Shown: piece by piece, positions 5,918 to 64,000 of the stretch
Numbering within the stretch: position 1 is the stretch's first letter
Layout: each line of letters starts with the position of its first letter
Assembly: GCA_026770025.1 (NCBI GenBank)
Contig: JAMXDE010000058.1
Span: forward strand, 62,001-126,000
DNA: 64,000 bases
DNA from: Craspedostauros australis
Lineage: Eukaryota; Bacillariophyta; Bacillariophyceae; Mastogloiales; Achnanthaceae
Direction of reading: 5' to 3'
The notes under the pieces: generated by a model
What the model saw: the letters and a program-made list of their open reading frames with translations, nothing else
The model's database searches: none
Told to the model about the DNA's origin: nothing
Translations under genes and position numbers: made by a program

Positions 5918-6272
5918 AGTCATCCCTCCCCACTGCGGTGTGAGTGTGCGCAAGGGTGTGCGGTTGCACCGCAACGCCTCACGGCGCGCCTCGTCACGTC
6001 ATGAACACAAACACAGAGACCCTGAACGGAGTTACATAGATACATACACACAAACCCAATCAATCCATCCTTGCAACATCACAGCATGGTCCAAGCTTCA
6101 ATCAATCACTGTGCAGAACTTTTTGTGACTAACATACGACTACGAGCAGAGAGTTACAGGGTGTCCGTACTCACTACAACGTGTCCGCCATTTGTGACGA
6201 TGGCCAGACTTTTCTTTTCTGACATATCTGGAGTATTGTTCCAAACCCTTGTGTCCACCCGTCCATAGTTCC
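5918..6272. other. Convergent intergenic spacer
   Basis: This is the gap between two converging genes and should hold both 3' untranslated regions. I see no gene, strong hairpin or clear polyadenylation hexamer. Confidence 0.5.
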
Positions 6273-31305: not shown

Positions 31306-31322
31306 TAGCAGAGTGAACAGCC
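31306..31322 (+). repeat. Target-site duplication, left copy (17 bp)
   Basis: TAGCAGAGTGAACAGCC is identical to 36389-36405. The first two bases may belong to the TTA tail on the right, so the true duplication is 15-17 bp, typical of target-primed reverse transcription. Confidence 0.92.
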
Positions 31323-31323
31323 T

Positions 31324-34523: not shown

Positions 34524-36286
34524 GGCCTTCTCCTGCACGAGCCGCTCGGTAGGTGGTACCGCGACGATGGGTCCTGGCGGTGGTGGAAGGATACCTACGG
34601 CCATGATATATTCGACACGGGGACACAGCCCCTACAGCGATATTCGCTTCGTCGAAACAGCAGAACCCGCAGGCAGCTCTACTCTTGGCGAGGGACAGCA
34701 GACAGTCTCCTAACAGGAGCCAAACGTGTCTCAGTGACTCTCACAGAAACCGGCATGATGTGGGACGGCTTCGTCGGATTGGCACAGCCGATCGATGAGC
34801 GCGAAGAACCCTACGACCCAGTGGAGAATCTGCAAGGCGAACTGAGTCTTGAGGAGGCCAAGTGCGCTGCACGGAGATCCCAGCTGCTCGTGGTGAGTGA
34901 CGGATCATTCAAAGATTCCAGAGGGACCGCGGCTTCTATTCTGTACGACGAGGCGACGACGGCAAGCATGACGTGCCAGACGTTCGTCCCGGGCCCGTCC
35001 GAAGCGCAAAGTGCTTACAGAAGCGAACTCGCGGGAATCTGGGCGTCACTTACCGTGATAGCCAGGAAGCGAGGTCTGGACGCCTCGTGTGCGATTACCA
35101 TTGCACTTGACGGCAAGCAGGCGATGTTGCAGGCCCAAGAGGATGGACTACGCCCGGGCCAACGCGACTGGGATGTCCTGACTGAGATTCGAGAGCTGCG
35201 GCACAGGATTCTGGCGATACTGCACTGGAAGTGGGTGAAAGGCCACCAGGATGACACTGGCAAGCAACTGACAACGCTGGAGAAACTCAACGTAGTAGTC
35301 GACAACCACGCCAAGCAGTTCTGGAGCCTGACAGAGAGCCGACGTCAGGTGAAAAGGTGGCACACGTCTACAAACAGATGGAGGTTACGTCTCCGCAACG
35401 CCGACTACTCGCATGTGGACGCGAAGGAGCTCCACGAGCTGCTGCAGTCTGCCGACGCAGCTACCTATTGGGCATCAAAGTTCCAGTGGGACAAAGATCA
35501 ACTGACGCAGGTGGACTGGTACACATACAAGAAGACGCGCGCGGCCAAGAAGAACAAAGAGGTGGCAAAGTTCGTCTCGAAGTGGTCATCAGGCTTCGTC
35601 GGAGTCAACAAGAAGCTGCACCAGGTTGGTCAGCGAGAGACGCCAAAGTGTCAGTTCTGCCAGCAGGACGAGACAACGATGCATGTGCTCCGCTGTAGCA
35701 AACACCAGGAAGCCTGGCAGACCTCTACGTCAGAACTTCTCGACCGCATGGTGCGGGTAGGCACATGTCCGCGACTGGTGCGAAATATGAGAGTGGGGCT
35801 GGTGAAATGGAGGCGAAAGCTCCAAGTGGACGGGCCACAAAGTTACATCGGTTGGTACCCCCTCCTGCTTGGTTTCATCCATAAGGATTGGGCCCGCCAG
35901 CAGACACAGTGGATGATGACGAACGAGTGCATATATCCAGACGCGAGAGCGTGGGCGCGAGAGATGGTGCGGTGGATCTGGAAAGTACCGTGGACGGTTT
36001 GGATTGCCAGAAACGAAAAAGTACATGACGCAGATCAGCATCCGACGATGAAGGACCTGCGCCGACAGGTGCAACGGATGCAACAGAGCGCGAGCAGCGA
36101 CATGACGGCATCGGAGCTTCATCTGCTCAGGGATGGCCGGAATATTGAGTATGATACCGAGCTGCAAATGCAGCAGCGGGTGCACTCTATGACGGCGGTA
36201 CAAGTGGCAGTGAAGGCCAGACGCAGGGCTCGATCTATGCAGGCAGAACGGCAGGCCATGGCAGCATGGCTGGGAATAGGATGAGT
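34524..36286 (+). pseudogene. Retrotransposon RNase H and zinc-knuckle region
   Basis: The same frame continues after the TGA at 34521 (WYRDDGSWRWWKD), showing that the two blocks were once one protein. The first Met is at 34755. RNase H: VVSDGSFKD (about 34888), YRSELAGIWASL (about 35020), TIALDGKQAM (about 35098) and a late KWVKGHQDD (about 35230) supply the acidic residues and the conserved His. Near 35650 a CQFCQQDETTMHVLRC motif fits the C-x2-C-x8-H-x4-C zinc knuckle common after RNase H in LINEs. The last codons end with TGA just before the 3' untranslated region. Confidence 0.85.
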
Positions 36287-38809: not shown

Positions 38810-38898
38810 GATCCTCGCGCCATCGTCATTCCCATTCCCATTCTCATATAATTCAATAGAATAGTACAATCGTTGAACTCTCATAGAACAACCACAAT

Positions 38899-38946
38899 AG
38901 CGTTAACAACAGCGTTAACAACAGCGTTAACAACAGCGTTGACAAC
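38899..38946 (+). repeat. 12-bp tandem repeat in the leader of the triple-MORN gene
   Basis: Four units of AGCGTTAACAAC (the last has GTTGAC) end 3 bp before the ATG at 38950. Confidence 0.97.
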
Positions 38947-38949
38947 AAC

Positions 38950-41900
38950 ATGGAAAGCAACGGAGAGAAGCTGCTGTACGTGTCGGACTCCCGCGTGTTC
39001 GACTCCAAGGGCAACCCTGGGGTGTACAGCGGGCACATCTTGCCAACAGCCGGCGGATTGCCCCATGGCGACAACGGCACGTTCTGCTACATCGGAGCTG
39101 TGACGCAGACGCCCATCGACACGTTCGTGGGCAGCTGGAACCGCGGGGAATGGCACGGCCATGGCAAGTGCCTCATGCGCAACGGGGATGTCTACGAGGG
39201 CATGCACGAGTTCGGCCAGAGGCAGGGAACGGGCAGGTACACCTGGAAGCTCAGCAAGAAGACTCAGTCCGGTGCTTCCGCAGCAGCAGCAGCAACGGCG
39301 GCGCTGTCATCAGAACCGAGGGTCTACGAAGGGGACTTCGTGCAGAACCAACGCCACGGCCAGGGACACTACCACTGGGGCAACCTGTCCTACTACAAGG
39401 GCAACTTCGTGCACGGCCAGAGGCAGGGCCACGGGGTCTACGTGCACCACGCGCAGAAGCTGGAGTACGTGGGAGAATGGGTCAAGGGCAAGTACCACGG
39501 CCAGGGCGTCCTCACCTACCCCTGCAGGCGCTGCGTGGGCCGCAATCTCACCACGGACAAGACGGAGTCCCTCCTGGCCACCTACAAGGGCTCCTGGGTC
39601 GCGGGCCAGCGCCATGGCTACGGCATCGAGACCATGGGCGATGGCAAGGTGCGCCATGATGGCATGTGGAACCATGACACTCCCATGATCGTCAGCCACA
39701 CCGGCTCCTCGCGTGCCTCCAGAACTATGGGCGGCAGCATCAGCGATGGCATTGGAGATATCAATGATGCTTCTTCTGCCTCTGCTGCCTCTGCTGTGGA
39801 CTCTCGCAGGAGCAGCACCGGTTCATTGGGTCGCACCTTGACTTCAAACTCAACGTCCACTGCAACCGCGGCCACGCAGGCAGGCCCACATGCAGGCACG
39901 GCAACAGGACAGACCCTAACGTCCAACTCATCCAGCCGTTCGGCAGCCAGCACCTCGCAGTCCCAATCGCACTCGCAGACAAATCAACGCGAAGCACCGG
40001 ACACGTCTGGCGAGGCAAACACAATCGTGGTCAACCAGGAAAGATGCAGGGACGCACGCGGCTTCTACGGACTCTACAAGGGCATCCTCTTTCGCGATCT
40101 GCCGCAGGGTGTGGGCACAATGAACTACACCGCCACGGACGACAGCAACAACAACAACAGCAGCAGTAACTATCACGATGATGTGGCCATGAATGAACCT
40201 TCCACTGCCAACAACCCCGTGGCCGAATACGAAGGATTCTGGGAGGACGGCAAGTACCACGGCTTCGGCAGGATGCAGATGAAGAACGGGGACAAGTACG
40301 TCGGAAACTTCGACAGCAACCAGCGTCATGGACCGGACGGGGAGTACTGGTACGCAGACGGCCGACACTACAAGGGGGACTGGTACAACGGCGTGCGACA
40401 TGGCAGCGGCCGCTTCCTCTACCCCGAAACGGGAGATCTATACCAGGGAGACTTCGTGCACGGCCAACGTCAGGGTCAAGGCAAGTTCACCTTCGGTCGC
40501 GACGGAACCTCCTACGACGGACAATGGTTCCAGGGTCAGTACCATGGTCAAGGCGCTCTCATCTCCGAAACGGGCGCCGTTTACACGGGAACCTTCGAGT
40601 ACGGCAAGTTCCATGGGGAAGGCCGTCACGTCGATTCCAACGGCGAAGTCATCTTCGACGGCGAATTCATCAACGGCATGCCGCTGCCGGAATACGAGAA
40701 GAAGCAGAAGGCGGAGCAGCAGAAGGGCATCTTCTCCAAGATGGCGGATGCCGTCCTGTCGCCGGGCAGCGCAACGCCGCGCAGGAAGCTCGATGCCGCC
40801 AAGCTCATGGGCAACTCCACCATGAAGGGCGGTCTGGCTGCCTTGACCTTGTCGGCGTCGGCCCAACGTTCCAAGCTCGGTCGCGATGATCTCAATCCGT
40901 CCAGGAACAGCATCACCTCGTCCTCCCTCCTCTCCGGTCTCATGGTGCCCAACATATTCGGTGGTGGCAGCAGCAACACCAACAGCAACGGCACCGCCAA
41001 AACTAACAGCAACAGCAAAACCAGCGCGGATGAAACCAAGCAGGATGATGATGACAACTGCAAGGCCGTCGTGGATCAGCTGGTGTGGGATGGCCAGAAC
41101 AACTCGGGCAGGTACACTGGCATCCTCCACATACCGACGCAGCGACCGCACGGCGTCGGACGCATGGTCTACAAGGACGGCAACCGCATCTACGAAGGAT
41201 TCTGGGCCAAGGGACACCGCCAAGGCCACGGCCGTTGCATGTTCGTCCACATGGGCGACTTCCACGAAGGCCAGTACCACATCAACCTTCGCCACGGTCC
41301 TGGCAAGTACATCTGGAAGGATGGCCGTCGCTTCGTCGGAGAGTACCGCCACGACGAGCGTCACGGACCGGGCAAGTTCTGGTACCCCAACGGCGACAAG
41401 TACGAAGGCATGTTCGAGCACGGCCAGCGATCCGGTCAGGGCGTCTTCACCTTCGGTCCCAGCTGCTCCTACCGCGGATCATGGGCCAACGGCGTCTACC
41501 ACGGACCCGGCACGCTGCAGTGGACGCAGACCACCAAGACGTCCGTCTCGGCACCCATGATGCGCTCCAAGCAGAAGGACGTCACCACCGTGCGCACCAC
41601 CAAGCACAAGTACGCCGGTGGATTTCACGCCGGCGCCTTCCATGGTCGTGGCGCCGAGTACGAGATCGTCACTGCTGGTGGCGGCGAAGAAGAGCGGCTC
41701 GTGCGCAAGGGTGTCTGGGAGAAGGGTGAGTACATGGGCGAGGTCAGCGATGATGAACATGATCATGAACACGCCGGCGGCGGTGACAGCGGTGCTGGTG
41801 AAGACGAACAAGGAGGCAGCGGCGTCAAAGTGTCTACAGCCAATACCGACTCCACCCAAACAGAAGCTGCGGTTGAACAAACCAACGAGCAACCGCTACT

Positions 41901-42303
41901 CACGCTCCCGGTGGCTCCGATCCTGGTGGAAGAACCCAGGAGCCCCACCAAGATGGAGGACGGTGAGTGGGAGAAGGTGGCGGCGGAACAGAACGGAACT
42001 GCAACCGACAATACGCCCGCCGCAGCCGAGTCATCTTCCGAGTCGGAGAAGCCAGCAGTGGAAAAGGCAGACAACGACAACAAGGAAGGCGATGACAGTG
42101 CGGAACCCACTCAGTCCAAGGATGATTCGCACATTCCGCTTGTCGACGCAAGTCAGAAGCCTTCCACGGTGAAGCGCGCCCTGTCCGCACCACCCGTGCC
42201 ACACCAGAACACCAAGACCCTTGCCAAGGAATGCAGCTCCGGCGAAGAGCAAACGTACGAGGCCGATCGGGATGCCTGGCGATCGACGTTGGACATGGAG
42301 TGA
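38950..42303 (+). CDS. Protein with three MORN-repeat arrays
   Basis: Single exon, 1117 residues, ATG at 38950 after a tandem-repeat leader. Array I (about 39060-39700) has six to seven repeats and closes with GDGKVRHDGMWNHDTPM. Array II (about 40066-40690) opens with GLYKGILFRDLPQGVGTMNY and contains YVGNFDSNQRHGPDGEYWY and following repeats. Array III (about 41068-41740) opens with GRYTGILHIPTQRPHGVGRM and closes with RLVRKGVWEKGEYMGE. The linkers are Ser/Asn-rich. A Lys-rich segment after array II (EYEKKQKAEQQKGIFSKM) could be helical, and the C-terminal ~180 residues are acidic and disordered. About 20 MORN units in one chain suggest a large membrane or cytoskeletal scaffold; no enzyme domain is present. 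Confidence 0.92.
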   Translation: MESNGEKLLYVSDSRVFDSKGNPGVYSGHILPTAGGLPHGDNGTFCYIGAVTQTPIDTFVGSWNRGEWHGHGKCLMRNGDVYEGMHEFGQRQGTGRYTWKLSKKTQSGASAAAAATAALSSEPRVYEGDFVQNQRHGQGHYHWGNLSYYKGNFVHGQRQGHGVYVHHAQKLEYVGEWVKGKYHGQGVLTYPCRRCVGRNLTTDKTESLLATYKGSWVAGQRHGYGIETMGDGKVRHDGMWNHDTPMIVSHTGSSRASRTMGGSISDGIGDINDASSASAASAVDSRRSSTGSLGRTLTSNSTSTATAATQAGPHAGTATGQTLTSNSSSRSAASTSQSQSHSQTNQREAPDTSGEANTIVVNQERCRDARGFYGLYKGILFRDLPQGVGTMNYTATDDSNNNNSSSNYHDDVAMNEPSTANNPVAEYEGFWEDGKYHGFGRMQMKNGDKYVGNFDSNQRHGPDGEYWYADGRHYKGDWYNGVRHGSGRFLYPETGDLYQGDFVHGQRQGQGKFTFGRDGTSYDGQWFQGQYHGQGALISETGAVYTGTFEYGKFHGEGRHVDSNGEVIFDGEFINGMPLPEYEKKQKAEQQKGIFSKMADAVLSPGSATPRRKLDAAKLMGNSTMKGGLAALTLSASAQRSKLGRDDLNPSRNSITSSSLLSGLMVPNIFGGGSSNTNSNGTAKTNSNSKTSADETKQDDDDNCKAVVDQLVWDGQNNSGRYTGILHIPTQRPHGVGRMVYKDGNRIYEGFWAKGHRQGHGRCMFVHMGDFHEGQYHINLRHGPGKYIWKDGRRFVGEYRHDERHGPGKFWYPNGDKYEGMFEHGQRSGQGVFTFGPSCSYRGSWANGVYHGPGTLQWTQTTKTSVSAPMMRSKQKDVTTVRTTKHKYAGGFHAGAFHGRGAEYEIVTAGGGEEERLVRKGVWEKGEYMGEVSDDEHDHEHAGGGDSGAGEDEQGGSGVKVSTANTDSTQTEAAVEQTNEQPLLTLPVAPILVEEPRSPTKMEDGEWEKVAAEQNGTATDNTPAAAESSSESEKPAVEKADNDNKEGDDSAEPTQSKDDSHIPLVDASQKPSTVKRALSAPPVPHQNTKTLAKECSSGEEQTYEADRDAWRSTLDME

Positions 42304-43117: not shown

Positions 43118-43969
43118 TCACCGATTGCTGACATTGATCTGATGCTTGCCATCGGACTGGCGGACAGGGCTGCCTTGCTCCCAAAAGCCATCGTGACGCA
43201 CCGTGACGCCATCCGCGTCAATCTCCTTGCCTCGACCATGGATGGCGCCTTCCACCCAATTGCCAACGTACTGAACGCCGTCGCTCCACGTGAGACTGCC
43301 GTTGCCGTGCATGAGGCCGTGATCAAAGTCTCCATCGTAGACGCTGCCATCGGGGAAGGTGCAGTGGCCGGGTCCGTGGCGCTTGCCGTGCTTCCATTTT
43401 CCGCGGAAGACGGTGCCATCGGTGTAGATCATGGTGCCATGGCGCATCTCGCCTCGCACGTGATGGCCGATGAAGACGCGACCGTCCTTGAATTCGATAC
43501 GGTCGTTTGAGGTGACAGTCTGCGAAGTGGCGGATGCGGTGGAAGTGGATGAGGAGTTGGAGTTGGTGGACTTTGTGGCTGTGGTTGCGTTGGAAGTGGA
43601 AGCATTCTGCGGTTGCTTGGGGCCCTTGCGCTTGGAGGGCTTGCCGAGCGTCGCGTTGGCATCCGCCATGATGCAGGGGCTGGACATGGGCGACAGAGGG
43701 GCAGTGAGGGATGAGGTGGAGGCGGTCCCCTGTTCCCAAGACTCCGACGTGAGGCTGCTCTTGCTGTTGTTCATGCTGCTGGTGCCGTGCTTGTTGGACT
43801 TGCTGACATTGCTGGAAGACGGGGCAGAGAGCGAGGCTGTCTCTTCACCCATCAAAGCCACGTCCTTGAGGCTCTCCTGCATGACCATGAGGGAGAAGGA
43901 GACGGAGCCGCTGATGGAGGATGAAGTGGAGCACTCTGATGGACGTTTGCTTGGTTGGGACAGACGCAT
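43118..43969 (-). CDS. Small MORN-repeat protein
   Basis: Single exon, 283 residues, ATG at 43969. Residues 1-150 are Ser/Thr/Asn-rich and disordered with a basic KPSKRKGPK patch. Residues 150-270 hold about five MORN-type units: DGRVFIGHHVRGEMRHG, DGTVFRGKWKHGKRHGPG, DGSVYDGDFDHGLMHGNG and DGVQYVGNWVEGAIHGRG. They end in the cap KEIDADGVTVRHDGFWEQGSPV, which matches the caps of the larger MORN proteins in the window. It is convergent with the triple-MORN gene, with which it could form a duplicated pair. Confidence 0.9.
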   Translation of the reverse strand: MRLSQPSKRPSECSTSSSISGSVSFSLMVMQESLKDVALMGEETASLSAPSSSNVSKSNKHGTSSMNNSKSSLTSESWEQGTASTSSLTAPLSPMSSPCIMADANATLGKPSKRKGPKQPQNASTSNATTATKSTNSNSSSTSTASATSQTVTSNDRIEFKDGRVFIGHHVRGEMRHGTMIYTDGTVFRGKWKHGKRHGPGHCTFPDGSVYDGDFDHGLMHGNGSLTWSDGVQYVGNWVEGAIHGRGKEIDADGVTVRHDGFWEQGSPVRQSDGKHQINVSNR

Positions 43970-43984
43970 TTTGATCGATCTCTG

Positions 43985-44009
43985 CTTTACTTTACTTTGC
44001 TTTGCTTTG
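43985..44009 (-). repeat. 5-bp tandem repeat in the leader of the small MORN gene
   Basis: Five units on the plus strand: CTTTA x2 then CTTTG x3, starting 16 bp upstream of the minus-strand ATG. Confidence 0.9.
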
Positions 44010-47000
44010 GTTGGGATGTTGGGAATGTACTTCTGCTGCTACTACTGCTACTGCCGCCAATGATGATGATGATGAAGGGCTGTGGTTGTTGCTTTGCTGG
44101 TATGGTAGAGTACGATCTATTGAGACGAGTCTGTATGGCACGATCTATTGCGACCTGTGCTATTGTATTCAGCAAGTGGCTGGGTTGGCTGGATTGTGAC
44201 CAGTTTGCCTCGTTCGTTTGCTTCCGAGTTTATGTTTTGAGTGTTTGTGTTCTGCTCTGTCGTGATCTGTCGTGATCTGCTGCAACCGGTTGTGGTTGTT
44301 TGTTCTTTGGATCCCTGTGTGCACTGGTCTATCGGTCTCGATGTCGACCTCACCACTCGTGTTGGTGTTGGTGCTTGTGATGTTGTTGGTGTGATTGTGT
44401 GTGTTGGTGTGGATAGAGTTCGCAACCTGTTTCGCGGCGTTTTTAAAGCAGTGTTGTTGTGGCAATCTGGCCGTCTCGCGAACAGCCACGCAGAAACTTT
44501 ACGGCACTGCGGTTCGTTGTCGGTGACAAATCACCAGTTTTGTGACACGAGTGCGAGCCGACGCCTTCTCCATCATGTGACTTTCTCATACTTTGTGACT
44601 TAGAGGCACTGTACTTTTGCGCACTGTCAAGCACTGCCAAGGACTGTCAAGAGTCATCACAAGGGGCCGTCTTCTTCGTGACACGCTACAATTATTGCCC
44701 TGAGGAAACCCGCGGAGTCTTGCTTTGCCAAACAACTATGGCCTGTTTCTCGCAATTGTGAATGGAAGACGTCCGGAATGACCACTTTAGCGAGATGGCG
44801 AGTTTTCTGGCGTACATTTCATGTCGCAGCACATAATCCGGCGCGGAACACAACCAACTCTTCTGTTCCCACAAAATCAAACAATGCCAACAAACCAGCA
44901 AACCAACAACGAAACAACTGTTGTTGGTACTTGTCCCGTTCCTCTCCAGAAACCACCAGTTCGTTCCCGTGCTCTGCCTGGTTGCTGGTTTGCGTTGTTA
45001 TCTATTCTATTACTATATGTGTTTGCCAGTTGGTTGATCGCTGGAGAGTTGCACTCATGCGGACATAACTCTTGTGACGACATCGATTAGTTGTTGATGG
45101 TCAGGGTGGCATTTCGGTTTGTCGGCATCGAGCGGCGGATCGCCATCACGCCGACATCCACATTCACATCCACATCCGTGCTTGGACGGGCATCGTCTCA
45201 TTCATCCATTCATCCAGACACCTCCATCCATCAACCTGAAGATCATATCGTAGTATGTCTATCAGCACAGATGCAAACGAAAAGCAACCATTGCGTGCGC
45301 GCTCACGACAATGATTCCTCATCATTCAAATCTAAAAAGAAGAGGGTAAATCGGAGTTGCATGCCAACATCGGAGTGGAACCAACTGGCGCATTGGGGTC
45401 CCGTCCCTTCCCACCATCATGGACTTGCTCACAGGCGATGTCGTAACAGCCCTCGCAATCACATGGATGCGGCTCTCACCCAGCAACGGAAAGACGCTCG
45501 CACGAGTTCATCGCAACTGCAAACACAACCACAACCACAACCACAAACCACCGCAACACCAAAAGACGAAGCGCACAAGATGTCTCCCTTCCGTCTCTCT
45601 CGCGCTTCTTCGGAACGAACACACCGAACGCGGCAGAATTGCGACAAACCGCGCTCCGCAACCCACGACACATGGCAGAACACGACGTTGCGGCCAACGC
45701 AAAAAAACAAACCAACCAAGTCGTGGACGACTCCGACTCGACGGAGTTGTCATCGCGGCTAGAATTCGTGACTCGGCTTCAATTGAAACACGATTCATCA
45801 TTTCAGTTGAATGACTCGATGGAACCAATACGAATAGTCGACCACTTCGATTAATGACGGATCATCCAAGAAACAAGACGAAGTCCGAGAAAGTCCGATG
45901 GGAGGGATGTTTTCTTCCGGTGGCGAGAAGCGGCACAATTAAGCCCAGCCAATTTTGTCGAAGGGTCGCCATTTTTTCGAATGTTGCCATGTGCTCGACA
46001 TGAACACTTGGAACCACGCAACGTACAACCTCGCGGAGTTGGCCCACAAATTTGAAAAAATGGTGCGAACTTCTTGCCTTTGGTCCCGATGATACCCACC
46101 CACGAATGCGCCATGGCGGTTCGACGAAAATGATGAGAGAGGAACGCCCATCAACCTGTCTGTCATCGAAATCTCGCCATCCATCATCGCGCACCGCGAC
46201 ATGCCAATGCTGATTGTTGATGAGTTGGCACTTGACTCAGTGCTGTGACGATCAGCTTGTTTTACGGTGACAGTGTTTGTGATTGTGGTTGTGCTCACTG
46301 GTTCGTCGGTATAACACATGGGGATGTTCACCCAACCATCACTACACCTGCATCATTCCGTGCATTCGTCCGTCCGTTCGTTCATTCATTGATGGCGATT
46401 GGCAACAATTTCGGTGCCGGCGGTTTGTTGATCGTGACCACAGGAAGGGGCACAAAATAACTAACAGGGGAAGGTCGTGTGGTCTTGGTTTGGATGTCCA
46501 CAGGCATCAATCCAGCATCACGATCGGACCGTCATTCGGACAGAAAGGCATCACTGCCAACTTCCGCCAGGTACCCAAACCAACCCTCATTTGCCATCTC
46601 AAGTCACCCCATCCAACATCGGACATCGAGCCTTCGAACATCCATCAACCGGTGGATCGCCTTGTCGGCTTCGTCAAGCAACCGATTGATCGATTGATGG
46701 CTGAAGGCAAGAGAAGAAGGAGACATCAGTAGGTTGAGTTCAGCGATCGTCCAGCCATCCTGGCAACCAGCTTATCAGGCGATCTGCGTATCAGTCAAGC
46801 AACGCACCAGCTTGGTGGAGTACCTTGCGGCTCCTTCTTGTTTGGATTGTGGAGACGGCACCGTCCAACGCTCCGTTGGAGGTGATCACGTCGGCCACTG
46901 TGCGAGTGAAGGCCAAGAGGAGGTGCAGCGTACTCTCGTTCACAAGGTTGTGCCATACGCACCATCAGCCTTCCTTCCTTGCTGATCCAGACAGAGAGAG

Positions 47001-53030: not shown

Positions 53031-56000
53031 ATGGCACCACGGATGACGGCAGGAATGAGCAACATGAGGGCGTCCTGCAGCTGGATGAAAGCCAGCCTGC
53101 CGTTGTCATGGAGAACTCTCTTTCTCTTGGCCCTGCTGTCCTGCGCATCAACCCATCCTCGACCATCGTCGTCGTTGATGGTCGCGGCAAGGCCCACCAC
53201 CTCTGACAAAGATTTTTCCCCATCGACTGACGCAAGGATCAACGAAGTCATCGATTGGTTGAACAATGCTCCGGAGGGGTTCTTCAACGACAAGCAGGTC
53301 GTGAGGAAGGCGAAGGACACAGCATTCCATTCCGGATCCGAGGTTGGACTCGGCATGTTCGCCCAGGAGAGGATCGAAGAAGGCGAAGAGCTGATGCGCA
53401 TTCCATGGGATCACATCATTGCCAAGGCGGGCGACGATGAATTCCCAAGCGTGGAGCTCGAATGTCACACGGTCACGGAGCTCATCAAGCAAGTGGAGCT
53501 GGGGGAGGAGTCCTACTTCGCGCCTTACGTGAACTACCTCATGAACGCCGACATGACTGGGAATCCAAGTGCATGGAGCCAACAGGCGAGGCAGATGTTT
53601 GACTCCGTTCTCAAAGGAACGACGGTGTACCAGCAATTGGCACCCTTCGAAGGCATCAACTGGCTGGACATTTGGGAGAACGAGTGCATGGGACAGCGGA
53701 GTCCCGTTGCGGACCGTGCCGTCATCGCGGTGGTGTCCCGAGCCAACTTCAACCTCCTCATCCCCATGTTCGATTTCTACAATCACGTCAGCGATCCAGA
53801 ACTTGACAACGTCGACTCTCGTGTTGATGAGGAGATTTCCTTCTTCGCCACCAGAACCATCGAAGCTGGCGAACCCATCGCGTACTCCTACCTGGATCCA
53901 CCCACGATGGAGAGGCCAAGATACTACGGCACAATAGGTACGTGGGATGGCTACAAGCCCAAGTGGAAGCAAAAATGGGAGTGGCCGTGGCTGTGGCTCT
54001 TGTGAGAGTGGTGCCAACGCCGCAACGTATCACATGCAGCCTGACTTCAATTGGATCGAGTTCGAATTCAAGCAGCTTGATATTCCCCGACTGAATGGTC
54101 TCTCCTGCATTCGTACGCTGCACTATACAATTCAGCGCGCAGTACGTTACCCACGCTGCATGGCATGAGATGGAACCAACAACTGACAATGCGCACACCT
54201 CCATGACTTGCCCACGCCACCCCATGCACCCCCAACCGTTTCTGACTCTACTCCACCCCATGCCCCACTACCCATCACGACTCGTGCATTCGCAGAACTG
54301 TTTGGCCAGTACGGCTTCATTCCGGATTATCCTCAGACATGGGCGTTCTTCTACAACGCACAGACCTACGCGCGGCTCATTGCAGACATCGAAGAAAACG
54401 ATCCGTCCAAGCACGGTGGCGCTGATGAAGGTGCAGGAAGGTTCACCGTTGAATGGGACATGGAACCAATCGACGACGATGGACCAGAGATGCTGGAAAT
54501 CTACGTCAGCCAGCTTGCTCGGGTACATGAAGAACTCAGCTCTGGACCAGATGAGTGGGCATTCGCACGCAATACAACCGATGTCATTTCAGAGGAAGAA
54601 TGGAACCTCGTCGTCAATTTCATTGAATCCGAGTTGCTGGCAGCAGCGAATATGCTGCGGTCCATCAACGACACAGACATGTTGAAAGACCCGAACTCGC
54701 CCATGGCGAACGAAGCGGACTGCTTTGATCACATTGGAAGCGAATGCTTCCTCAACCAGCTCTACCACACTCTCCAGTCCGAAAAGGAGATCGTGCCCGA
54801 GAGACAAGAATCGTGTGATTCAGACGTTGTGAGGAACTTCACCAACTACCAGGAATGGCAAAAGGTGATGTCCGAGTATCAGCAGATCGTGTTCCGCAGG
54901 CGCACGGAGGATGATGGAGATGTGAATGTTTGCATGACGCTGGATAACATCGTCCAGATCTGCGACAACTACAGACCGCACTACCACGAGTACGCCGTCA
55001 ACTACGCAGCAAGATACCTGCCAGAATTGAAGCGCGTCGCCTTCATCGGTGGTGGTGATTCGATGATCCTCCAGGAGGTGCTCAAGTACCCTAACCTCGA
55101 GCTCGTCATCGGACTGGAACTCGATCAGGTCGTCGTGCGCAACGCATTCGAATGGTTCCACACAGATCCGCACTTCCACGATGACAGGGTCGAATGGTGG
55201 TTCGGTGATGCCACCAAGTCTCTCCTCCTCCTCCCCAGAGAGTACATGAACTCATTCGACTTCGTCATGGTGGACGTGTCCGAAACGGGAGCCAGCCTCA
55301 CCGTCACCGAGCATCTCGATATCCTCAACGCCATGGCACTGCTCGTCAAACCAGGTGGTATCATGGTGAAGAACGAACCGCACTTCGAAAAGATCTCCGC
55401 CACCTTCGATTACTCCGTGGATGTCCACTTCTACGACAACCCCATGATCTGCGACCAGTCCATGATCATGGGCAGCAACCACATCGATTTCTACCATCAT
55501 GACAAGATGACGGATCATGGCGTCGACAACCTCCTGTTGCCAGAGATCGACGACTACCCCCACCAGTACTACCTGTGGCGTGACTACAAGATCAACGATC
55601 CAACCACAGACGGATCCTGCGATGCTCTGGCTGAAGCCATCGAAGACCAGAAGAAGGCCGAGGGTATCCGAAAGGGCAAGAGCGAAGGTATGCTGATGGT
55701 GATCGAGGTGGAGCACTGCGCCATTCCGTTGAACACCATCGAATCTGCGCTGATGACAGCCCTGGAGGGTCTTGGTTTCACATCCATCGTCGCCGACGGT
55801 AACAACAAAGACGACGACGACGACGACGATGCTGGGGATGATGATGATGATGATAAGAGCAGTGACATCGTGATCATGATGGCGGAGGGATACGTGATCG
55901 CCCGCTGGTGGAAGGGACGATCGTACGTTGGATTGGACATCCATCTGTGGGGACGCTTCGAGAAGATGGACGCCACACGAACGGCGTTGGTGAAGGCTCT

Positions 56001-57414
56001 CGGAGCCGGCAACGATGCCGTAAAGGGCTCCGTCTCGTCGTACCGCGTCATCGTGTCTGGAATGTACGGCAACAACTCGTGGGAGGAAGACACGAAGCTC
56101 ATTGGTCCAGATCTCACCACTCACACCCGCAAGTGTGATACGTCCGAGGAGGATGCAACTGCGGCTGTTCCATCTGCCACTACCACCGGCACCACTCCAA
56201 CACCTGCAGCTGCAGCCACCATCGAAAGCCTGATGGCTGACGATGACTTCCTTGCGACATCGCTGGGTGCCATCACGGATGCGATGGATGTTGCGGATGG
56301 CTCCATGGTGGTTGTGTTCTGTGGCAGCCAATCCAGCAGGTGTCTTTCTGCCTCCGCATTGGAGAAGAGCAACAGCAACAGCAACAACAGCAGTGGATTG
56401 TTGAAGATCGTCCCGGTCCATGTCTGTCCTGAGATGGAGTCCCTCATCTTCGGAGACGGCGATGTCAACAACAGCAACCTTGCTGACTTGCATGAATGCC
56501 GCCATTCGATCGAGGATGAGATCAAATCCGCCATCCGCGAGCACAACCAACCCATCGGAGCTGTCATCCTGGATGCGGAAGCACCGTACGCCATGGCACG
56601 CATCTTCACGAGCTTCTGGACATTCCGACGCAACATCTTCCAGAACACGGTCGTGCCTCTCTACGTCTCCATCCTTCCAGACTCCACGAAGGATGAATGG
56701 CGTCGCAACACTCTCAAGCAGATCCGCTTGAAGCTCGACATCGACCCTCTGACCAGAACCGAAATCATCGTCCAACCCAAGCGTGCCAAGATGGATGCTC
56801 CTGCATTCGAGCTGTCCATCCTCACCGTGGACATGAACGATACCTTCCCTCGCATCCGACGTGTGGAGGACACCATCGCCACCAAGTACGGTGACACCTT
56901 CATGGTCAAGCCAAGCGTGGTGCAAGGTGGAACACTGAGATACCTCGACAACGACGAGTTCAACGCGACACTGTTTTCGCAACGAGACTACGATCTGAGT
57001 GCCGAAAAGCAGCAGCTGGAGGACCAGCTCGCCTTCGGTCGTCAGTCGGTGCTGCAGCTTGGACGCAGCAGCAAGGACCACGATAACAGCCCCAACATCG
57101 CCTCCATCATGACGAGCGTGATGGAGGACGAGGATGTCGACTTCACCGTGAAATCCATGCGGGTTTACGATGATGTCGGTGACGGTGTTGTGGTGGTGGC
57201 GCGTTGCGTGGAAGGAACCGTGGTGAGCGTTTGGGACGGACGTGATCACATCGTGGTGAATCTGTTCCAGTTCGATCAGGAGCGTTCGGAGGCCGACCTG
57301 TTCTTGACGGAGTACTTGGAGGTGGCCGGAGAAGGCTGGTCGAAGGAGCTGAGGGATGACATGCCCCGGGGCACGAACAAGGTGATCAACTTCAGCACGA
57401 ATGATTCGAAGTAG
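53031..57414 (+). CDS. SET methyltransferase / aminopropyltransferase / AdoMetDC-like fusion
   Basis: Two exons, 53031-53937 and 54296-57414, with a 358-bp intron (GTACGT to TTCGCAG). The join gives TIELFGQYGFIPDYP, restoring the end of the SET domain. The product is about 1341 residues. Residues 24-39 (LSWRTLFLLALLSCA) are a likely signal peptide. Residues 95-330 are a SETD6/Rubisco-LSMT-like SET domain (GLGMFAQERIEEGEEL; IPMFDFYNH; GEPIAYSY; YGFIPDYP). Residues 500-680 are a spermidine-synthase fold: LDNIVQ, HYHEYAVNYAARYLPE, IGGGDSM (554-559), GLELDQVV, GDATKSL and VMVDVSE. Residues 768-870 resemble AdoMet decarboxylase (MAEGYVIARWWKGRSYVGLDI) but lack its key residues, and residues 1225-1320 repeat that pattern. 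Residues 900-1220 are unrecognised. A poly-Asp loop interrupts the first AdoMetDC-like module. Probable role: making or methylating polyamines in the secretory system, perhaps long-chain polyamines of silica. Confidence 0.87.
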
Positions 57415-58877
57415 AATGCGTGTCCTATTCGTGTACTGTACGTGTACTATACGTGCCCCCTGGTGTAGAGGCTCCACCCGCAGAGCAATGTGAGCGATAC
57501 GCAGCCATGCACAGCGACACAGTTGCATAGAGAACACAGGGTATAACATAGATCGTGGCTCGTACATAGCAGAGAGCACATGCTTGAGACTCCAGGGACG
57601 TGCATGAACTTGACTCCAGTTGATCTCTCTCTCTCTCTCGCACCCGTCGCATCGCCGACATGATCAGACCCTGTGACGAGGCTGAGATGGTTCCACACCC
57701 TGTTGGCACCGGCATGATCCCTGCCTCTTGTTCTGCAACGATCCTGTTCAATCGCAACGACGTCGATGTTACCGTTTCGTGCGATTTTGTGGAGCGACAG
57801 GGAGGCCTTCTTCCAGTCCCGCAAAAGTAGTCGTGCGAGCTTCGTCGTCATTTCTGGACATCGCGAGAGATTCGTACGACTCATATGACTGATCTCACGA
57901 AGATGGTCATCACACAATTGCTTGATGCGGTGTTCACGATCTCATTGATGTTTTTGGATTGTGTCAAACACGGTCAACCTTCAACACACACGAGCTGGCT
58001 TCGCGGACACGCTCGTCGTCCAGTTTGTGACCACCGTGCCATCCAGTGGTAGTGCGGCGACTCGAAATTCACTCGAGGCTTAAGCTGAAATTTCACGACC
58101 AATGGATAGATGCTTCTCGCCTTCGTCCGTTGTCATCAAAAAGTGTGCGCCCAACCTGTTTATTTATGCCGGCTGCGAAACGGTTGACGAACATTCAGAA
58201 ACCATGCGCAGACATCGAACACCTGTTGAGATCGCTTTGGTTGCGGTTGTTTGTGCCCCGCGCAGTAACCTCGTTTCGATTGGGCTTGTCATGTTGCGCC
58301 CTGAGCGAACAGTGGGCCGCATTCAGACGACAAACCGTTTAAATGTCTGGCTTATGCTCCCCTTGCTCCATGCGCTCACGACGAGATCCAACGGTCTCCG
58401 TCGTTGAGAATCATGGCAGCGCGCTTGGGTAGTGGAAGAATTGCGGAGGATTCCACGAATACTCGCATCCGAGCGACGAGGATGATTCGCAGCAACGCCA
58501 AACGCTCCGAGCACGCTGTCGCAACAAAGTCACAGTGTTGGCGCGAAAGATCACTCAAAACACGCAACGAAAACGAGAGACAAAATCCAAGGGGAACGAT
58601 CATCGCATCCACACAGGCACAGACACGAAGGGAAGAAAGTCGAAGCACTTTCTTGCCCAGCTCTTTCCATTCTTGTCTGAGCTGGACCAAGTTGCGTTGT
58701 GCACAAATAGCGACAAGAGACAAGAAGCAATAGACAAGAGAAAATAGACAAGAGGCAATAGAGATAGTTGCACTCAGGAAGTGTTTGTGCACAACATACA
58801 ACCACCAATAGAGAGAGAGAGAGAGAGTGTGTGTGTGTGAGAGAGTGAATAGTAATACTCTGGCTGAGCCCACCACG
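57415..58877. other. Intergenic region, about 1.5 kb
   Basis: No supported gene. Short frames on both strands (57425-57917 on minus, 58046-58407 on plus, 58404-58747 on plus) carry no motif. It ends with the GA/GT repeat in the leader of the next gene. Confidence 0.5.
58810..58839 (+). repeat. GA then GT dinucleotide repeat in the leader of the last gene
   Basis: A GA run (about 58810-58827) passes directly into a GT run (to about 58839), about 40 bp before the ATG. Confidence 0.95.
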
Positions 58878-61800
58878 ATGATGGAAGTGCGCGAGCTGAA
58901 GCCGCCATCCAACCGCTTCCTGGCGCGTCGTTCCTCCATGAACGGCAAGGACGGCAACAGCAGCACAAAGAGACCGTCAGGCAGCAGATCGCTCATGGCA
59001 GGAGACACCACTGCCACCAATAGCAGACAAAAGGGCGTTCAGGCAACGCAGGGCATTCCCACGATGCAGGTGAAGCAGAGCAATGCCAGCATCAGCACCA
59101 GCGCGAGGGCAATCGGGTCCTCCATCGGTCGGGTCTCCATGAAGTGCCTTCCTGGTTCCTCCGGCCATGGCAAGCCGAGGGAGCGCAGGTCGTCGGCCAC
59201 TGACAAGCTCAATGGCAATGCTGATGATGGTGGCAACCATGGCACCCAAGGGAGTGACGGCAAGGCGGAACGCGGCGCGAGACCCAAGTTGATCAAGCTG
59301 GCGCCTTCGAAGCGCGATCTCATGCGCTCTCAGTCATTCAGAACTGTCGATCTGGATCTGGAGCAAGAGCAGGGGGAGGAAGACCAGCATCAGCATGATC
59401 GGGTTGGCGTTCATGTTAACGTTGACCTTAACGTTAACGTTGACGGTGAGACCGATGCAAGAGCGAACAAGCAATCCCAGAAGGACAACCACAATGGCAG
59501 AGATCGAAGCAGAGGCAGGGGTAGAGGCAGAGGCAGAGAAAAGGACGGCCAGCGCAGCACAAACGAGAAAAGAGGCATGGCTCCTAGTGCCACTCACAGA
59601 GGCAGCAGCAAGGACTCGGCCAACTACCACCAATCGGTGGCCAGCGGCGATACGTGGACCTCCTTCAATTCGTCCTTCGGAGATGAGTCCTTTGCAACCT
59701 TGGGCACGACAGCATCCTCCGAACGTTTGGGTGAGGGCGATACAGCCGACGACACAGTGGACGACACAGTCGAGCGCAGCATGAGCAGCATGGGCAGCAT
59801 GGAAAGCGCACTTGATGACGATGGGATGGATGGTGATGGTGGCACGGAACACGAGAGTCAGAACCAGAAGGGGAATGGCGACAGCAGCAGGACGCAGCAG
59901 TCGGAAGTCAGTGGTGCCCGTCACAGAAGGAACAGATCAGGATCGGACCCCAGACCCCAGCGCCAATCGTCGACGCTGTCAGCATCATCGAGGCGACGCA
60001 AGCTTTCCAGCAGCAACGGCAGCAGCAACAGCAACGGCGAAGATCAGGATTCCAGCACCAACGAGGGTGTCCACAAACGTCCGTCTTCGCTTGATTCCAG
60101 GCGCAGTGCCGGTCGTCGACGGGCCAAGCAGCGATCCAGCTCCAGATCGCGCAAACGATCGGGTTCGGCGAGGAGGCGCCCGCATGCGCAACGCAAGGAC
60201 CAGCCATCGGCATCAACATCAACAGCCGATGCTAGCAACGATGAACACGTTCAGGCAACGAAGCCCATGATCCGTCAGCAGTCGATCGGCAATCTCAGCA
60301 AGGCGACGGCGAAGACGGTGCTGTCCAGCTCCTCCGAGTTTGATCCCAACCAATCCCATCCGTCGATGGCCTCCACCGTCTCGACGCTGTCATCGGGCCT
60401 GCCGCGTCGAAGGCTGGTTCATGAGCAATCCGAGAGCTGGCTGGGTCTTGTGCCGGAGGCGAGCGACGAGGCCAGCAAGGCCTCCACTTCTGTTCCAATA
60501 TCACCGGTAGACCAGCGCTACTTGCAAAAGAAACAGCAACAGCAACCGTCGCCGTCGCCAGCGCAATCGCAGACGCCGGATCGGTCGCATCAGCGAAAGA
60601 ACTCCACTCAGAATCCGCCAAGGTCACGATCGAGAGGCTCCCGAACGCGCAACGACAGGCTGCAGGCGCACAGCAGCCATCAATCCACCAACAGAGCCAG
60701 GCGCCGCAAGAGCAACGACTCCTTGTCGCAGAGTCTGCACGTATCGTCGGGCAGTCGCAACGACCTCACCTTGTCAAGTCACTTGCAACCTTCGCCTCGC
60801 CAAACCCAGCGACGTAGAGACAACCGAACGGCAGCCAAGCATGACGACAAGCTCCATGACAGCAATGAATCCACCATCATCGATCAACGGCCACCGCGTC
60901 GCAGCAGCAGACTTCCATCCAAAAGCCCCAAGGCGCCCACTGGCCGCAATACCATCCACTCCACCAACAACGAGCAACAGCATCACGCTGCCAACAATGA
61001 AAAACTTGATGGGCCTCGCCATGCGGATCACCGTCGATCACCGCTCCACAAAATACAATCATCATTCCGGAACCGATCATCAAAGACCGCAACCACCGAT
61101 GACAAGGCGTCCACAACAGAGCCTTCGGTTCAACGCAGCAACAGCAGCGACGATCTCACCAAGGAGGAGGTCGACAGATCATCGCACAGCCGACGCCGCA
61201 TGCAACACACGTCGACAAAGATGGCCGCCTCGACAAGAAGCTTGATGCCCTCTGCTTCTCACAAGCGCGACGAAGCAAGCACCGGGCGGCAACAGCAGTC
61301 AGAACAGCCACAAAAGCAGCATCAACAGCAGCCAATCGGAAGAAGCAGCTCGCACTCCTCCAAGGCACGGCGCCAGCATCGACGCCCACGACGTTCCTCC
61401 ATGGACACCATCAATACCACCACCACATCAGGAGCACCGCCTGCCTTCCAATCCTTCACTTCCTCGTCACCCGCGAATGTGTCAGACAGAAACAAGAATG
61501 AGGCGGACATGCCTCTGGCTCCGATCAAGCGGTCCAATTCGGAAGGCTCGTTGGCGGATCTCAAGCGAGTCAACTCCCTCTTCACACAGCAAAGCCCGCA
61601 TCAGCCCAGGTTCCGAAGAGCGCCGTTTCCAACAAGATCGCGATCGCAGCAGCGCCAACCACAGCAGCAGCAGCAACGGTCGAGATCTTCATCGTTGTCG
61701 CGTCGAAGGATTCCCAGACGAGCGTCGATGGACTCCATGGCTGGCCCATCATCCAGCAATCTCGGCACAAGCCTGCACAGGACGAATGCCAGGGGCTTGC

Positions 61801-64000
61801 CAGGGCAGGGTTCGCTGCTTGATCTGCGCAGACGCGTCTATGCAAGGCATCGATCCAACTCGGAAAGCTCGATCTTCCAGTTGCAAAATGCCGTCGCTGC
61901 GAAAGCCGAAGGCACATCGATTGGTCTTGCTGCGCACATGGCAAAGAGCAACGACGAGATTGGCGACCTTGGCGCAGACACGAAGGACGGCGAGAATGTG
62001 AACGCCGTCAGCAAGAATGAACTGCTCGTCCTGCTGCAGGCACTCAACGAGCGCCTCGCGCGTGCGGTCTCAGCCGAACACACGCAGAAGTCGAAGGGTC
62101 AGCAACACGACGGGAAAAAGGTGGACAAAGAGGACGCCGCCGAACAGCAACGCCGACGACAGTCGCAGACGTCGGAAAAGAACGACATGAAGATGACGAA
62201 GCACATGAGCAGAAAGGAAGAAAGGAAAGGGCGTTCGGAAACGCGACAGCGCAAAAAGTCCACATCGTCAAGAGCGATCGGCCTGAATGGCTCAGTGGAG
62301 GATGATCGCGATTCGGAGGAACAGCCCCCCTCGATCTTGAAAGAAATCCAAGATCACGTCGAATCGTCGTTGAAGGAATTGGGAGCAAATTCTCAAGTGT
62401 CAGAAAGCAAGCCGAAGGCGAAGAGTAGCGGTGGCCGCGATGAGGGTACTCGAAGATTCCAACGGCATCGGAAGCAGCTGGAGTGTGACCTCTCTCACAC
62501 CTACCTGTTCCAAGTCATCCAACACGCCAGCATGCGTGATTGCGATGATGTCTTCAAAGCGCTCGCAGATGCATCATTTTCGGACGTCGAATCCTTGAAC
62601 GATGGCAGCAGAACCACCTCGCTGTCCCTGGACCGATTCATCGTCATGATGAAAGATTCGCAGGATGAGTACGAACTGAATTTGTCAAAGTACCAGCATG
62701 AGGATTGCGAAAAGGATGAAGACTGTCATGATCTCAGCCGCGATGATCTCGGTGATACAGGTCGCGTAGACGGATCGCCTGGCGCCGACATGTCTCCTCG
62801 GCACGAGGTGATGCAAGATTCAGACGAAGACGAGACCATCAACGATCAGGAGGAGAGCGATAGCGAAGTCAACGATGACGACGTCGATGATGATGATTAT
62901 GATGGTCTTCGAAGTGCTCACGGCAAACATGATGCCAACAACAATGACGACGACAATACCGATGACGATGACAATTGCGCGTCGCAGTGCTCAGTTGATT
63001 CGAGCTACTTCTCCCTCCACTACGAGGAGACGGAGCACACCACACGAAGCGTCTCATTGAATCTGCGCGGAGATCAGTTCGTCCCGACCAGCCCATCGCA
63101 GAGGACGGAACGGACGAACCGATCCTGCACGGAGCGCAGCTGGAGCGCCATGGGATCGTTGCCGGAGGGTCAGCAGGAGCTGGAATCCAAGACTCTCCTG
63201 CTTTCTCTCGACATCATGCAACGCCCCATCGAACCGCAGGATCTGGACGATGACAGGATCATGGTGAATGACATGGAATATGACGACGACGAGACCGGCC
63301 TTCGGATGAAGTATTCGGGCATGCTGTCCGAGGAGAGCGGCAAACCATGCGGACACGGCAAGCTCCAGTACCTCGACCGACCATCACAGCAGAAGCGAAA
63401 TCCGAAGCACTTGAAGGACCTAGCGAAGAACCACGATTTTCAACTGCGGTGGTACAAGGGGCAGTTCGTCCATGGCGTCAAGAATGGCTTCGGGCAGAGC
63501 TGCTACTGGAGCGGTGCGACGTACAAGGGTTTCTTCTCTCAAAACATGAAGAACGGACACGGGACGTTGGACTTTCCTGACGGCCGTCGCTTCGAAGGTC
63601 TGTTCGAGAAGAATGTGAAGCTGGAGGGCACCATGATGTACGAGGATGGATCCACTTACTCAGGCAAGTTCGCCCACGGCGTGCGTCACGGTTCCAACGG
63701 CACGTACCGATTCGGCAACTCCGCGCTTGTTTACGTCGGCGACTTCCGCAAGGATCAAATCGAGGGTCAGGGCACACTGACGTGGCCGAACGGAGGCAAG
63801 TACGTTGGTGCCTGGAAGAATGGTGTCCGGCACGGGCATGGGACCGAGTACAGAGCTGATGGCAGCCTGATGAGGTCTGGCAAATGGGAGAATGGCTCGC
63901 TGATCGAGCCCGAGAAGTTCGATGAAGAACCGGACGCCCAATCCTATGAATACGACGAAGCGGAATCCAATTACGACTCTGACTCTGATGAAGAAAGCTA
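58878..64000 (+). CDS. Disordered protein with C-terminal MORN array (reaches window edge)
   Basis: An open frame runs from ATG 58878 (CACCACGATG) to the last base without a stop; the final two bases are TA, so a stop may fall exactly at the edge or the gene may continue. More than 1707 residues are visible. Residues 1-1100 are S/R/Q/N-rich with repeated basic-Ser motifs (MRSQSFRTVDL, RQQSIGNL, RRKSNDSL, RSNSSDDL, RSNSEGSL). Residues about 1120-1260 may be partly helical (LLVLLQALNERLARAVSAE; FQVIQHASMRDCDDVFKAL). An Asp-rich stretch lies near 62820-62980. From residue ~1472 (GLRMKYSGMLSEESGKPCGHG) a MORN array of about seven units follows, closing with GTEYRADGSLMRSGKWENGSL and an acidic tail. 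It has the same array plan as the other MORN genes here. Confidence 0.85.
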   Translation, partial: MMEVRELKPPSNRFLARRSSMNGKDGNSSTKRPSGSRSLMAGDTTATNSRQKGVQATQGIPTMQVKQSNASISTSARAIGSSIGRVSMKCLPGSSGHGKPRERRSSATDKLNGNADDGGNHGTQGSDGKAERGARPKLIKLAPSKRDLMRSQSFRTVDLDLEQEQGEEDQHQHDRVGVHVNVDLNVNVDGETDARANKQSQKDNHNGRDRSRGRGRGRGREKDGQRSTNEKRGMAPSATHRGSSKDSANYHQSVASGDTWTSFNSSFGDESFATLGTTASSERLGEGDTADDTVDDTVERSMSSMGSMESALDDDGMDGDGGTEHESQNQKGNGDSSRTQQSEVSGARHRRNRSGSDPRPQRQSSTLSASSRRRKLSSSNGSSNSNGEDQDSSTNEGVHKRPSSLDSRRSAGRRRAKQRSSSRSRKRSGSARRRPHAQRKDQPSASTSTADASNDEHVQATKPMIRQQSIGNLSKATAKTVLSSSSEFDPNQSHPSMASTVSTLSSGLPRRRLVHEQSESWLGLVPEASDEASKASTSVPISPVDQRYLQKKQQQQPSPSPAQSQTPDRSHQRKNSTQNPPRSRSRGSRTRNDRLQAHSSHQSTNRARRRKSNDSLSQSLHVSSGSRNDLTLSSHLQPSPRQTQRRRDNRTAAKHDDKLHDSNESTIIDQRPPRRSSRLPSKSPKAPTGRNTIHSTNNEQQHHAANNEKLDGPRHADHRRSPLHKIQSSFRNRSSKTATTDDKASTTEPSVQRSNSSDDLTKEEVDRSSHSRRRMQHTSTKMAASTRSLMPSASHKRDEASTGRQQQSEQPQKQHQQQPIGRSSSHSSKARRQHRRPRRSSMDTINTTTTSGAPPAFQSFTSSSPANVSDRNKNEADMPLAPIKRSNSEGSLADLKRVNSLFTQQSPHQPRFRRAPFPTRSRSQQRQPQQQQQRSRSSSLSRRRIPRRASMDSMAGPSSSNLGTSLHRTNARGLPGQGSLLDLRRRVYARHRSNSESSIFQLQNAVAAKAEGTSIGLAAHMAKSNDEIGDLGADTKDGENVNAVSKNELLVLLQALNERLARAVSAEHTQKSKGQQHDGKKVDKEDAAEQQRRRQSQTSEKNDMKMTKHMSRKEERKGRSETRQRKKSTSSRAIGLNGSVEDDRDSEEQPPSILKEIQDHVESSLKELGANSQVSESKPKAKSSGGRDEGTRRFQRHRKQLECDLSHTYLFQVIQHASMRDCDDVFKALADASFSDVESLNDGSRTTSLSLDRFIVMMKDSQDEYELNLSKYQHEDCEKDEDCHDLSRDDLGDTGRVDGSPGADMSPRHEVMQDSDEDETINDQEESDSEVNDDDVDDDDYDGLRSAHGKHDANNNDDDNTDDDDNCASQCSVDSSYFSLHYEETEHTTRSVSLNLRGDQFVPTSPSQRTERTNRSCTERSWSAMGSLPEGQQELESKTLLLSLDIMQRPIEPQDLDDDRIMVNDMEYDDDETGLRMKYSGMLSEESGKPCGHGKLQYLDRPSQQKRNPKHLKDLAKNHDFQLRWYKGQFVHGVKNGFGQSCYWSGATYKGFFSQNMKNGHGTLDFPDGRRFEGLFEKNVKLEGTMMYEDGSTYSGKFAHGVRHGSNGTYRFGNSALVYVGDFRKDQIEGQGTLTWPNGGKYVGAWKNGVRHGHGTEYRADGSLMRSGKWENGSLIEPEKFDEEPDAQSYEYDEAESNYDSDSDEES

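Follow-up and report, generated by a model that had tools for sequence, protein, structure and literature searches.

A family of predicted SET-aminopropyltransferase fusion proteins with dead AdoMetDC-like domains in the diatom Craspedostauros australis, three of them with near-identical tails behind diverged heads

Introduction

Fusions of S-adenosylmethionine decarboxylase (AdoMetDC) with aminopropyltransferase (APT), some of them carrying a histone-type methyltransferase domain, have been proposed to act in the synthesis of long-chain polyamines in diatoms (Michael 2011, FEBS Lett 585:2627, pmid 21827754, as paraphrased in PMC12029483, PMC3820600, and PMC6356823). Diatom-specific SET proteins have been tied to cell-wall formation and polyamines (Nemoto 2020, pmid 32488507, as cited in PMC11554505 and PMC11151724), and Nitzschia inconspicua has been credited with 32 APT-domain fusion proteins (PMC12803844). 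In the cited passages of this literature, the synthesis of the long N-methylated polyamines of the diatom glass wall is still a proposal without enzyme proof.

Here, we describe a two-exon gene on the forward strand at positions 53031-57414 of a 64-kb window of the diatom Craspedostauros australis, the window being the whole stretch of DNA analyzed (bases 62001-126000 of contig C56, in a genome assembly of 74.8 Mb and 90 contigs). Its predicted product, to which all residue numbers refer, joins SET, APT, and AdoMetDC-like modules and, as far as the 2011 fusions are paraphrased, resembles them in the diatom host, in the fused AdoMetDC and APT, and in the histone-type methyltransferase domain that is sometimes present. 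The principle of a SET-APT-AdoMetDC fusion is thus already known from the 2011 proposal, and the suspicion, voiced in the sequence-only reading that preceded this analysis, that such diatom fusions had been described is borne out by the passages citing that work. What appears to be new here is the occurrence, in three paralogues, of near-identical tails behind diverged heads. With a probability of roughly 0.55, we read the protein as a member of the diatom SET-APT-dead AdoMetDC fusions that would work as a secretory-pathway APT using decarboxylated AdoMet (dcAdoMet) made elsewhere.

A family of fusion genes with one layout

The gene model and its N-terminal part comprise the following features.

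53031..53937, + strand: exon 1, encoding a signal-like N-terminus followed by the SET domain (open frame; splice donor ATAG/GTACGT, the slash marking the junction; Pfam SET)
53031..53153, + strand: signal-peptide-like N-terminus, residues 1-41, with hydrophobic core TLFLLALLSCA at 29-39 (hydropathy only)
53346..53891, + strand: SET domain, residues 106-287, with Asn251-His252 and the presumed catalytic Tyr287 (Pfam, alignment columns)
53938..54295, + strand: GT-AG intron of 358 bases (the same place fits in 12 paralogue loci)
54296..57414, + strand: exon 2, remainder of the protein including the stop codon (open frame)
54304..54885, + strand: variable linker following the SET domain, residues 306-499 (without a Pfam match)

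Joining position 53937 to 54296 restores the frame and gives a product of 1341 amino acids with a single stop at its end; left unspliced, the exon 1 frame would reach a stop ending at 54005. The second exon, of 1,038 codons, carries the APT domain. A weak point of the model is its start, for which an in-frame ATG upstream at 52932 is a possible alternative.

A Pfam search of the genome itself returned 21 Spermine_synth matches, and 13 genes (the focal gene and 12 other loci) share one layout, with a SET domain, a break just after it, and a long second exon. In unguided tblastn searches, the match to exon 1 stopped at query residue 300-301 in 9/12 paralogue loci, that to exon 2 started at exon 2 residue 1-5 in 10/12, and a frame-keeping GT-AG intron fits in all 12, giving exon junctions of the form G-x-x/[EDH]-[LIM]-[FL]. 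Because the paralogue splice sites were picked by likeness to the focal gene, the exact place of the intron in these loci is partly set by construction. Altogether, the tblastn breaks and the intron fit indicate that the join of exon 1 to exon 2 is more than chance.

Four of the 12 paralogues share the focal contig (at ~175-180, 180.5-185, 224-228, and 229-234 kb). The C-terminal 402 residues were found at 13 places in the genome, all within the family (13/13 scored candidates). Scans of IMG/VR and GTDB contigs, seeded by one or two short patterns, returned no relatives of the APT or the C-terminal alignment, and a direct bacterial donor was therefore not seen. As in Nitzschia inconspicua, known here by count only, a single diatom thus holds a large family of APT fusions.

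All family comparisons below refer to alignments of 12 rows, in which some models begin at a likely Met after trimming, L046 is represented by its second SET unit only, and L047 is left out because of an insertion in its exon 2. This insertion of 982 bases (L047 3313-4294; C56, ~176.8 kb), has 20-base terminal inverted repeats, interrupts the region of the APT cofactor site, and resembles a DNA transposon; the gene looks disrupted. The L046 locus (1308-7170) contains two SET units, with a SET exon starting with a hydrophobic N-terminus, a linker and second SET in a single frame, and an APT exon.

By hydropathy, with the start taken at 53031 for the focal gene, 12/13 family models have a hydrophobic core within their first 75 residues; the exception is L046, scored from its second SET unit, whose first SET exon starts hydrophobic by eye. 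The focal protein has 10 N-x-S/T sites, and 13 of its 18 cysteines are invariant across the 12 aligned rows, which would suit disulfide bonding in the lumen of the secretory pathway. Pfam SET matched focal exon 1 at 6e-10 (residues 106-287), and the best PDB matches of this part were SETD6 (9e-7) and SETD3 (3e-4). The focal domain has both the N-H motif and the presumed catalytic tyrosine of SETD6/LSMT/SETD3-type methyltransferases; in the family, His252 is found in 12/12 members, Asn251 in 10/12, and Tyr287 in 9/12. The signal-like N-terminus, the single clean intron restoring the frame, and the SETD6/LSMT-type SET domain claimed from the sequence alone all hold in these results. The module set, the signal-like N-terminus, and the diatom host correspond to those reported for the 2011 fusions. 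The abstract of that study reportedly mentions signal peptides, along with other fusion arrangements in which the AdoMetDC is dead. With the SET proteins of the 2020 study, as cited, the family shares a SET domain and a presumed tie to cell-wall formation and polyamines.

A conserved aminopropyltransferase core beside a dead AdoMetDC-like domain

The features of this part are as follows.

54901..55623, + strand: APT (spermidine synthase) domain, residues ~505-745 (Pfam PF01564; PDB spermidine synthases, 1.3e-13)
54982..54990, + strand: Tyr532-His533-Glu534, counterpart of the Tyr79 motif in human spermidine synthase (PDB profile, alignment)
55048..55059, + strand: GGGD (554-557), cofactor loop (PDB profile, alignment)
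55273..55275, + strand: Asp629, counterpart of catalytic Asp173 in human spermidine synthase (PDB profile, alignment)
55678..56103, + strand: first AdoMetDC-like domain, predicted to be dead, residues 764-905 (PDB profile, Pfam family matches, hhalign)
55882..55911, + strand: AEGYVIARWW in place of the ESHxxxHTW of active AdoMetDC, with Ser replaced by Gly834 and His by Arg839 (alignment)

Spermine_synth (PF01564) matched focal exon 2 at 6.7e-14 (52.3 bits against a cut-off of 22.9) and all 12 family members (best, 1.3e-19). In the PDB profile search, the APT part matched 29 sequences at E<=0.01, the best being spermidine synthases at 1.3e-13; 25 of them are aminopropyltransferases (8iyi being named only KLLA0B09372p), and the other 4 are AdoMetDC hit by the adjoining domain. 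The spermidine-synthase fold with GGGDSM and ELDQVV recognized earlier was thus correctly read, the focal domain having GGGDSM at 554-559 and LELDQVV from 576. Tyr532, His533, Glu534, Asp557, Glu577, Asp579, Asp607, Asp629, and Glu632 are invariant in 12/12 rows. In human spermidine synthase, deprotonation of the amine falls to Asp173, and Tyr79 assists in its positioning (PMC12812037); the equivalents of both, together with the dcAdoMet and catalytic acids, are present in all 12 rows. The APT core is also the most conserved part of the protein (the share of the commonest residue averages 0.84-0.85 at 551-650 versus 0.40-0.70 in the blocks of 751-900), suggesting that selection acts on APT catalysis.

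The AdoMetDC-like stretch of the focal protein alone gave no Pfam match at E<=1, and PF02675 was matched at that threshold by 10/12 family members (best, 1.6e-8). The family profile matched the Thermotoga AdoMetDC in PDB at 2e-4, and hhalign related residues 764-905 to AdoMetDC at 4.8e-8. The processing and catalytic residues of the Thermotoga enzyme are Ser63, His68, and Cys83. Across all 12 rows, the processing Ser is replaced by Gly (Ala in one), the His by Arg (Thr in one), and the Cys by Trp, the Cys column being set by the hhalign alignment while HMMER puts the Cys in an insertion. The AdoMetDC-like segments noticed from the sequence alone are thus real by the family profile, and this comparison argues that the module is related to bacterial-type AdoMetDC but catalytically dead. 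Since the module lacks the residues that form and use the pyruvoyl group in 12/12 rows, dcAdoMet would have to come from elsewhere.

Four other loci of the genome (L048-L051) keep the motif ESH[VI]S[FL]HTW...TCG, with the catalytic Ser, His, and Cys present in 4/4. In these loci, the intact AdoMetDC motif is followed by an APT motif, and by eye, a membrane-anchor-like segment precedes AdoMetDC in L048, L049, and L051; L050 has a similar one further upstream, in a frame of its own. For two of the four, both on contig C10, Pfam also finds SET on the same strand downstream of them (reading unspliced).

Near-identical tails behind diverged heads

One further feature of the gene divides it in two.

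54916..54925, + strand: breakpoint at residue ~508-513, downstream of which the gene is near-identical to two paralogues and upstream of which it is not (pairwise identity, synonymous divergence [dS])

Between the focal gene, L044 on its own contig, and L043 on contig C6, the SET and linker parts are 38-49% identical, with a dS of 1.15-2.5 or saturated, whereas identity reaches 84-97% and dS only 0.08-0.33 in APT, the first AdoMetDC-like domain, and the C-terminal part. The break is sharp and falls at residue ~505-513, the start of APT, in all three pairs. At the other end, the near identity of the focal gene with L043 drops at ~1177, and that with L044 extends 20 bases beyond the stop codon. 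The same contrast appears at fourfold sites, for which the identity is given below for the head, the APT plus first AdoMetDC part, and the C-terminal part, in this order.

Focal/L044: 40/81, 143/154, 168/181
Focal/L043: 24/68, 141/151, 134/152
L044/L043: 26/76, 143/154, 129/152
Median over the 66 possible pairs among the 12 rows: 0.37, 0.44, 0.36

For head versus APT part, Fisher p values are 8e-14 (focal/L044), 2e-19 (focal/L043), and 9e-21 (L044/L043), and the GC content at third codon positions differs little (0.68-0.70 versus 0.72-0.75). The mosaic is seen in only 3/12 aligned members, the next pair, L036/L037, being much weaker (0.42, 0.65, and 0.49). Because a reduced divergence of this kind at fourfold sites is not expected from purifying selection by itself, recent gene conversion (or head exchange) is likely. 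Moreover, trees of the head, the APT part, and the C-terminal part each group the three genes with a support of 1.0, which favors conversion of the tails over a swap of unrelated heads. Gene conversion has thus probably kept the catalytic tail alike behind diverging heads in these three paralogues. In the titles and abstract openings returned by a literature search on diatoms, gene conversion, and polyamines, tail conversion was not found as a topic.

A possible, though doubtful, extension of this finding is a combinatorial system in which a tail of APT and two dead AdoMetDC-like domains, made uniform at some loci by conversion, would be combined with fast-diverging secreted SET/linker heads choosing the silica protein or the amine, some heads having given up methylation to act as binding domains only.

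A probable second AdoMetDC-like domain at the C-terminus

Three features lie beyond the first AdoMetDC-like domain.

56206..56793, + strand: residues 940-1135, containing the four invariant cysteines 978, 985, 1013, and 1037 (family alignment)
57034..57288, + strand: probable second AdoMetDC-like domain, predicted to be dead, residues 1216-1300 (hhalign, shuffle tests)
57349..57372, + strand: family signature LRDD[MFQ]PRG close to the C-terminus (family alignment)

Residues 940-1341 of the focal protein matched nothing in Pfam at E<=1 and nothing in NCBIfam. Among the other family members, four NCBIfam families appeared at E 0.066-0.15, and the Pfam search of the exon 2 set gave three single-member matches at E 0.09-0.1. 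The C-terminal profile had a single PDB match, at 0.46, and nothing convincing. A canonical AdoMetDC profile, built from one PDB sequence and four sequences of the genome itself, aligned colinearly with residues ~1216-1300 over 82 columns (E 0.0067), versus 1-23 columns (E 0.04-0.62) for the control regions (940-1137, 305-500, SET, and APT). With the canonical and first-domain profiles combined, the whole C-terminus scored 29.8, a score reached by 0/1000 column shuffles (top, 28.2); column shuffles scored as high in 5/1000 cases for the first-domain profile alone and in 1/200 for the canonical profile alone. A low-confidence model of residues 1200-1341 (a helix, four strands, two helices, and a strand) is compatible with the AdoMetDC topology. 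These results make it fairly probable that residues ~1216-1300 form a second dead AdoMetDC-like domain, and the new activity that had been suggested for residues ~900-1220 is not borne out.

A tandem duplication of APT-AdoMetDC, in which 940-1135 would be a second APT, is unsupported: APT profiles aligned with this region over only 1-27 columns (E 0.03-0.69). Likewise, the whole part from APT to the first AdoMetDC-like domain (SPD1) aligned with the entire C-terminus over 161 columns with an E of 0.019 and a probability of 2.4, leaving the duplication unsupported.

A model for the fusion protein and its alternatives

We propose a model in which the protein would enter the secretory pathway and other enzymes would supply dcAdoMet, the probable suppliers being the active AdoMetDC-APT fusions that this genome also encodes. 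The APT domain could then add aminopropyl groups to a polyamine or to the lysine-bound polyamine chains of silica proteins, and the SET domain, where intact, could N-methylate those same amines; the SET/linker head would supply methylation or the choice of acceptor. The dead AdoMetDC-like domains may serve in dimer formation or as a scaffold, in the manner of the N-terminal domain of human spermine synthase (SMS). This SMS domain resembles AdoMetDC. SMS and the focal protein are alike as an APT with an extra domain, but the extra domain is N-terminal and single in SMS, whereas in the focal protein it follows APT, has a probable second copy, and is joined by a SET domain in front. An association of the SMS domain with dimerisation is stated in the passage cited (PMC11203672).

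Several observations weigh against the secretory-pathway APT. Tyr287 of the SET domain is replaced by Gln, Leu, and Phe in L036, L039, and L041, and methylation cannot be a role common to the whole family, since this tyrosine is lost in 3/12. In the putrescine pocket, D[VL]SET is found where DSSDP is expected and, by eye, P-x-[IL]-C replaces the IPTYPSG segment with Tyr241; with the acceptor side thus remodeled, putrescine is unlikely as the acceptor. In addition, the general methyltransferase model Methyltransf_12 weakly matches 5/12 members (best, 6e-4). The changed pocket and the Methyltransf_12 matches would also suit an APT-like domain turned methyltransferase, the protein being a double methyltransferase acting on polyamines made by other enzymes, much as putrescine N-methyltransferase arose from spermidine synthase. 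We consider this conversion unlikely given that Asp557, Glu577, Asp607, Asp629, and Tyr532 are all kept and that every member matches Spermine_synth; moreover, the active AdoMetDC-APT loci that were read are, by eye, also without IPTYPSG, so that its loss alone is no sign of methyl transfer. More improbable still is a regulator comparable to the trypanosome AdoMetDC prozyme, whose dead AdoMetDC domains would pair with and switch on the active AdoMetDC-APT fusions, APT and SET being secondary: the family does retain two AdoMetDC-like domains, one of them certain and the other probable, that lack catalytic residues, and candidate active partners exist in the same genome, but it is the APT core that is best conserved, well above the blocks of 751-900.

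The single self-sufficient machine of the sequence-only reading, which would make dcAdoMet, transfer aminopropyl groups, and methylate the product, can draw on the presence of all three module types; it becomes very improbable with the AdoMetDC Ser, His, and Cys substituted in 12/12 rows. We give as little credit to the idea that SET and APT belong to two genes or mRNAs and that the fusion is a reading artifact, as the exon 2 frame starts, by eye, without a signal sequence of its own, most paralogue loci share the position of the break in unguided tblastn, an intron fits in all 12, and the linker and second SET of L046 share one open frame. The 13 genes of the same layout yield clear predictions, with the APT residues kept, the AdoMetDC dead (12/12 aligned rows), the SET dispensable in some, the acceptor pocket remodeled, and the tail probably converted in three.

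Genomic context

Among 10 neighboring open reading frames (ORFs) tested, MORN repeats were found in 5 (window positions 2-2332, 11065-17868, 38887-42300, 43121-44038, and 58812-63998), TLDc and Ostalpha matches and a sub-threshold Macro match were also obtained, and 2 had no match; none of the 10 showed a link to polyamines. Within the 64-kb window, neither tRNA nor Rfam matches were found. A series of open frames at 31309-36281 is reverse-transcriptase-like by eye, its frame 32964-34520 having no Pfam match. Genome-wide, 79 SET matches were counted, several of them in tandem groups (e.g., C28:531-537 kb and C17). In keeping with a diatom host, the silicon transporter family PF03842 gave 88 matches in the genome (best E, 4e-249) and none above the cut-off in 14 control genomes; 28 of the 88 are near full length without stops, and many others are fragments.

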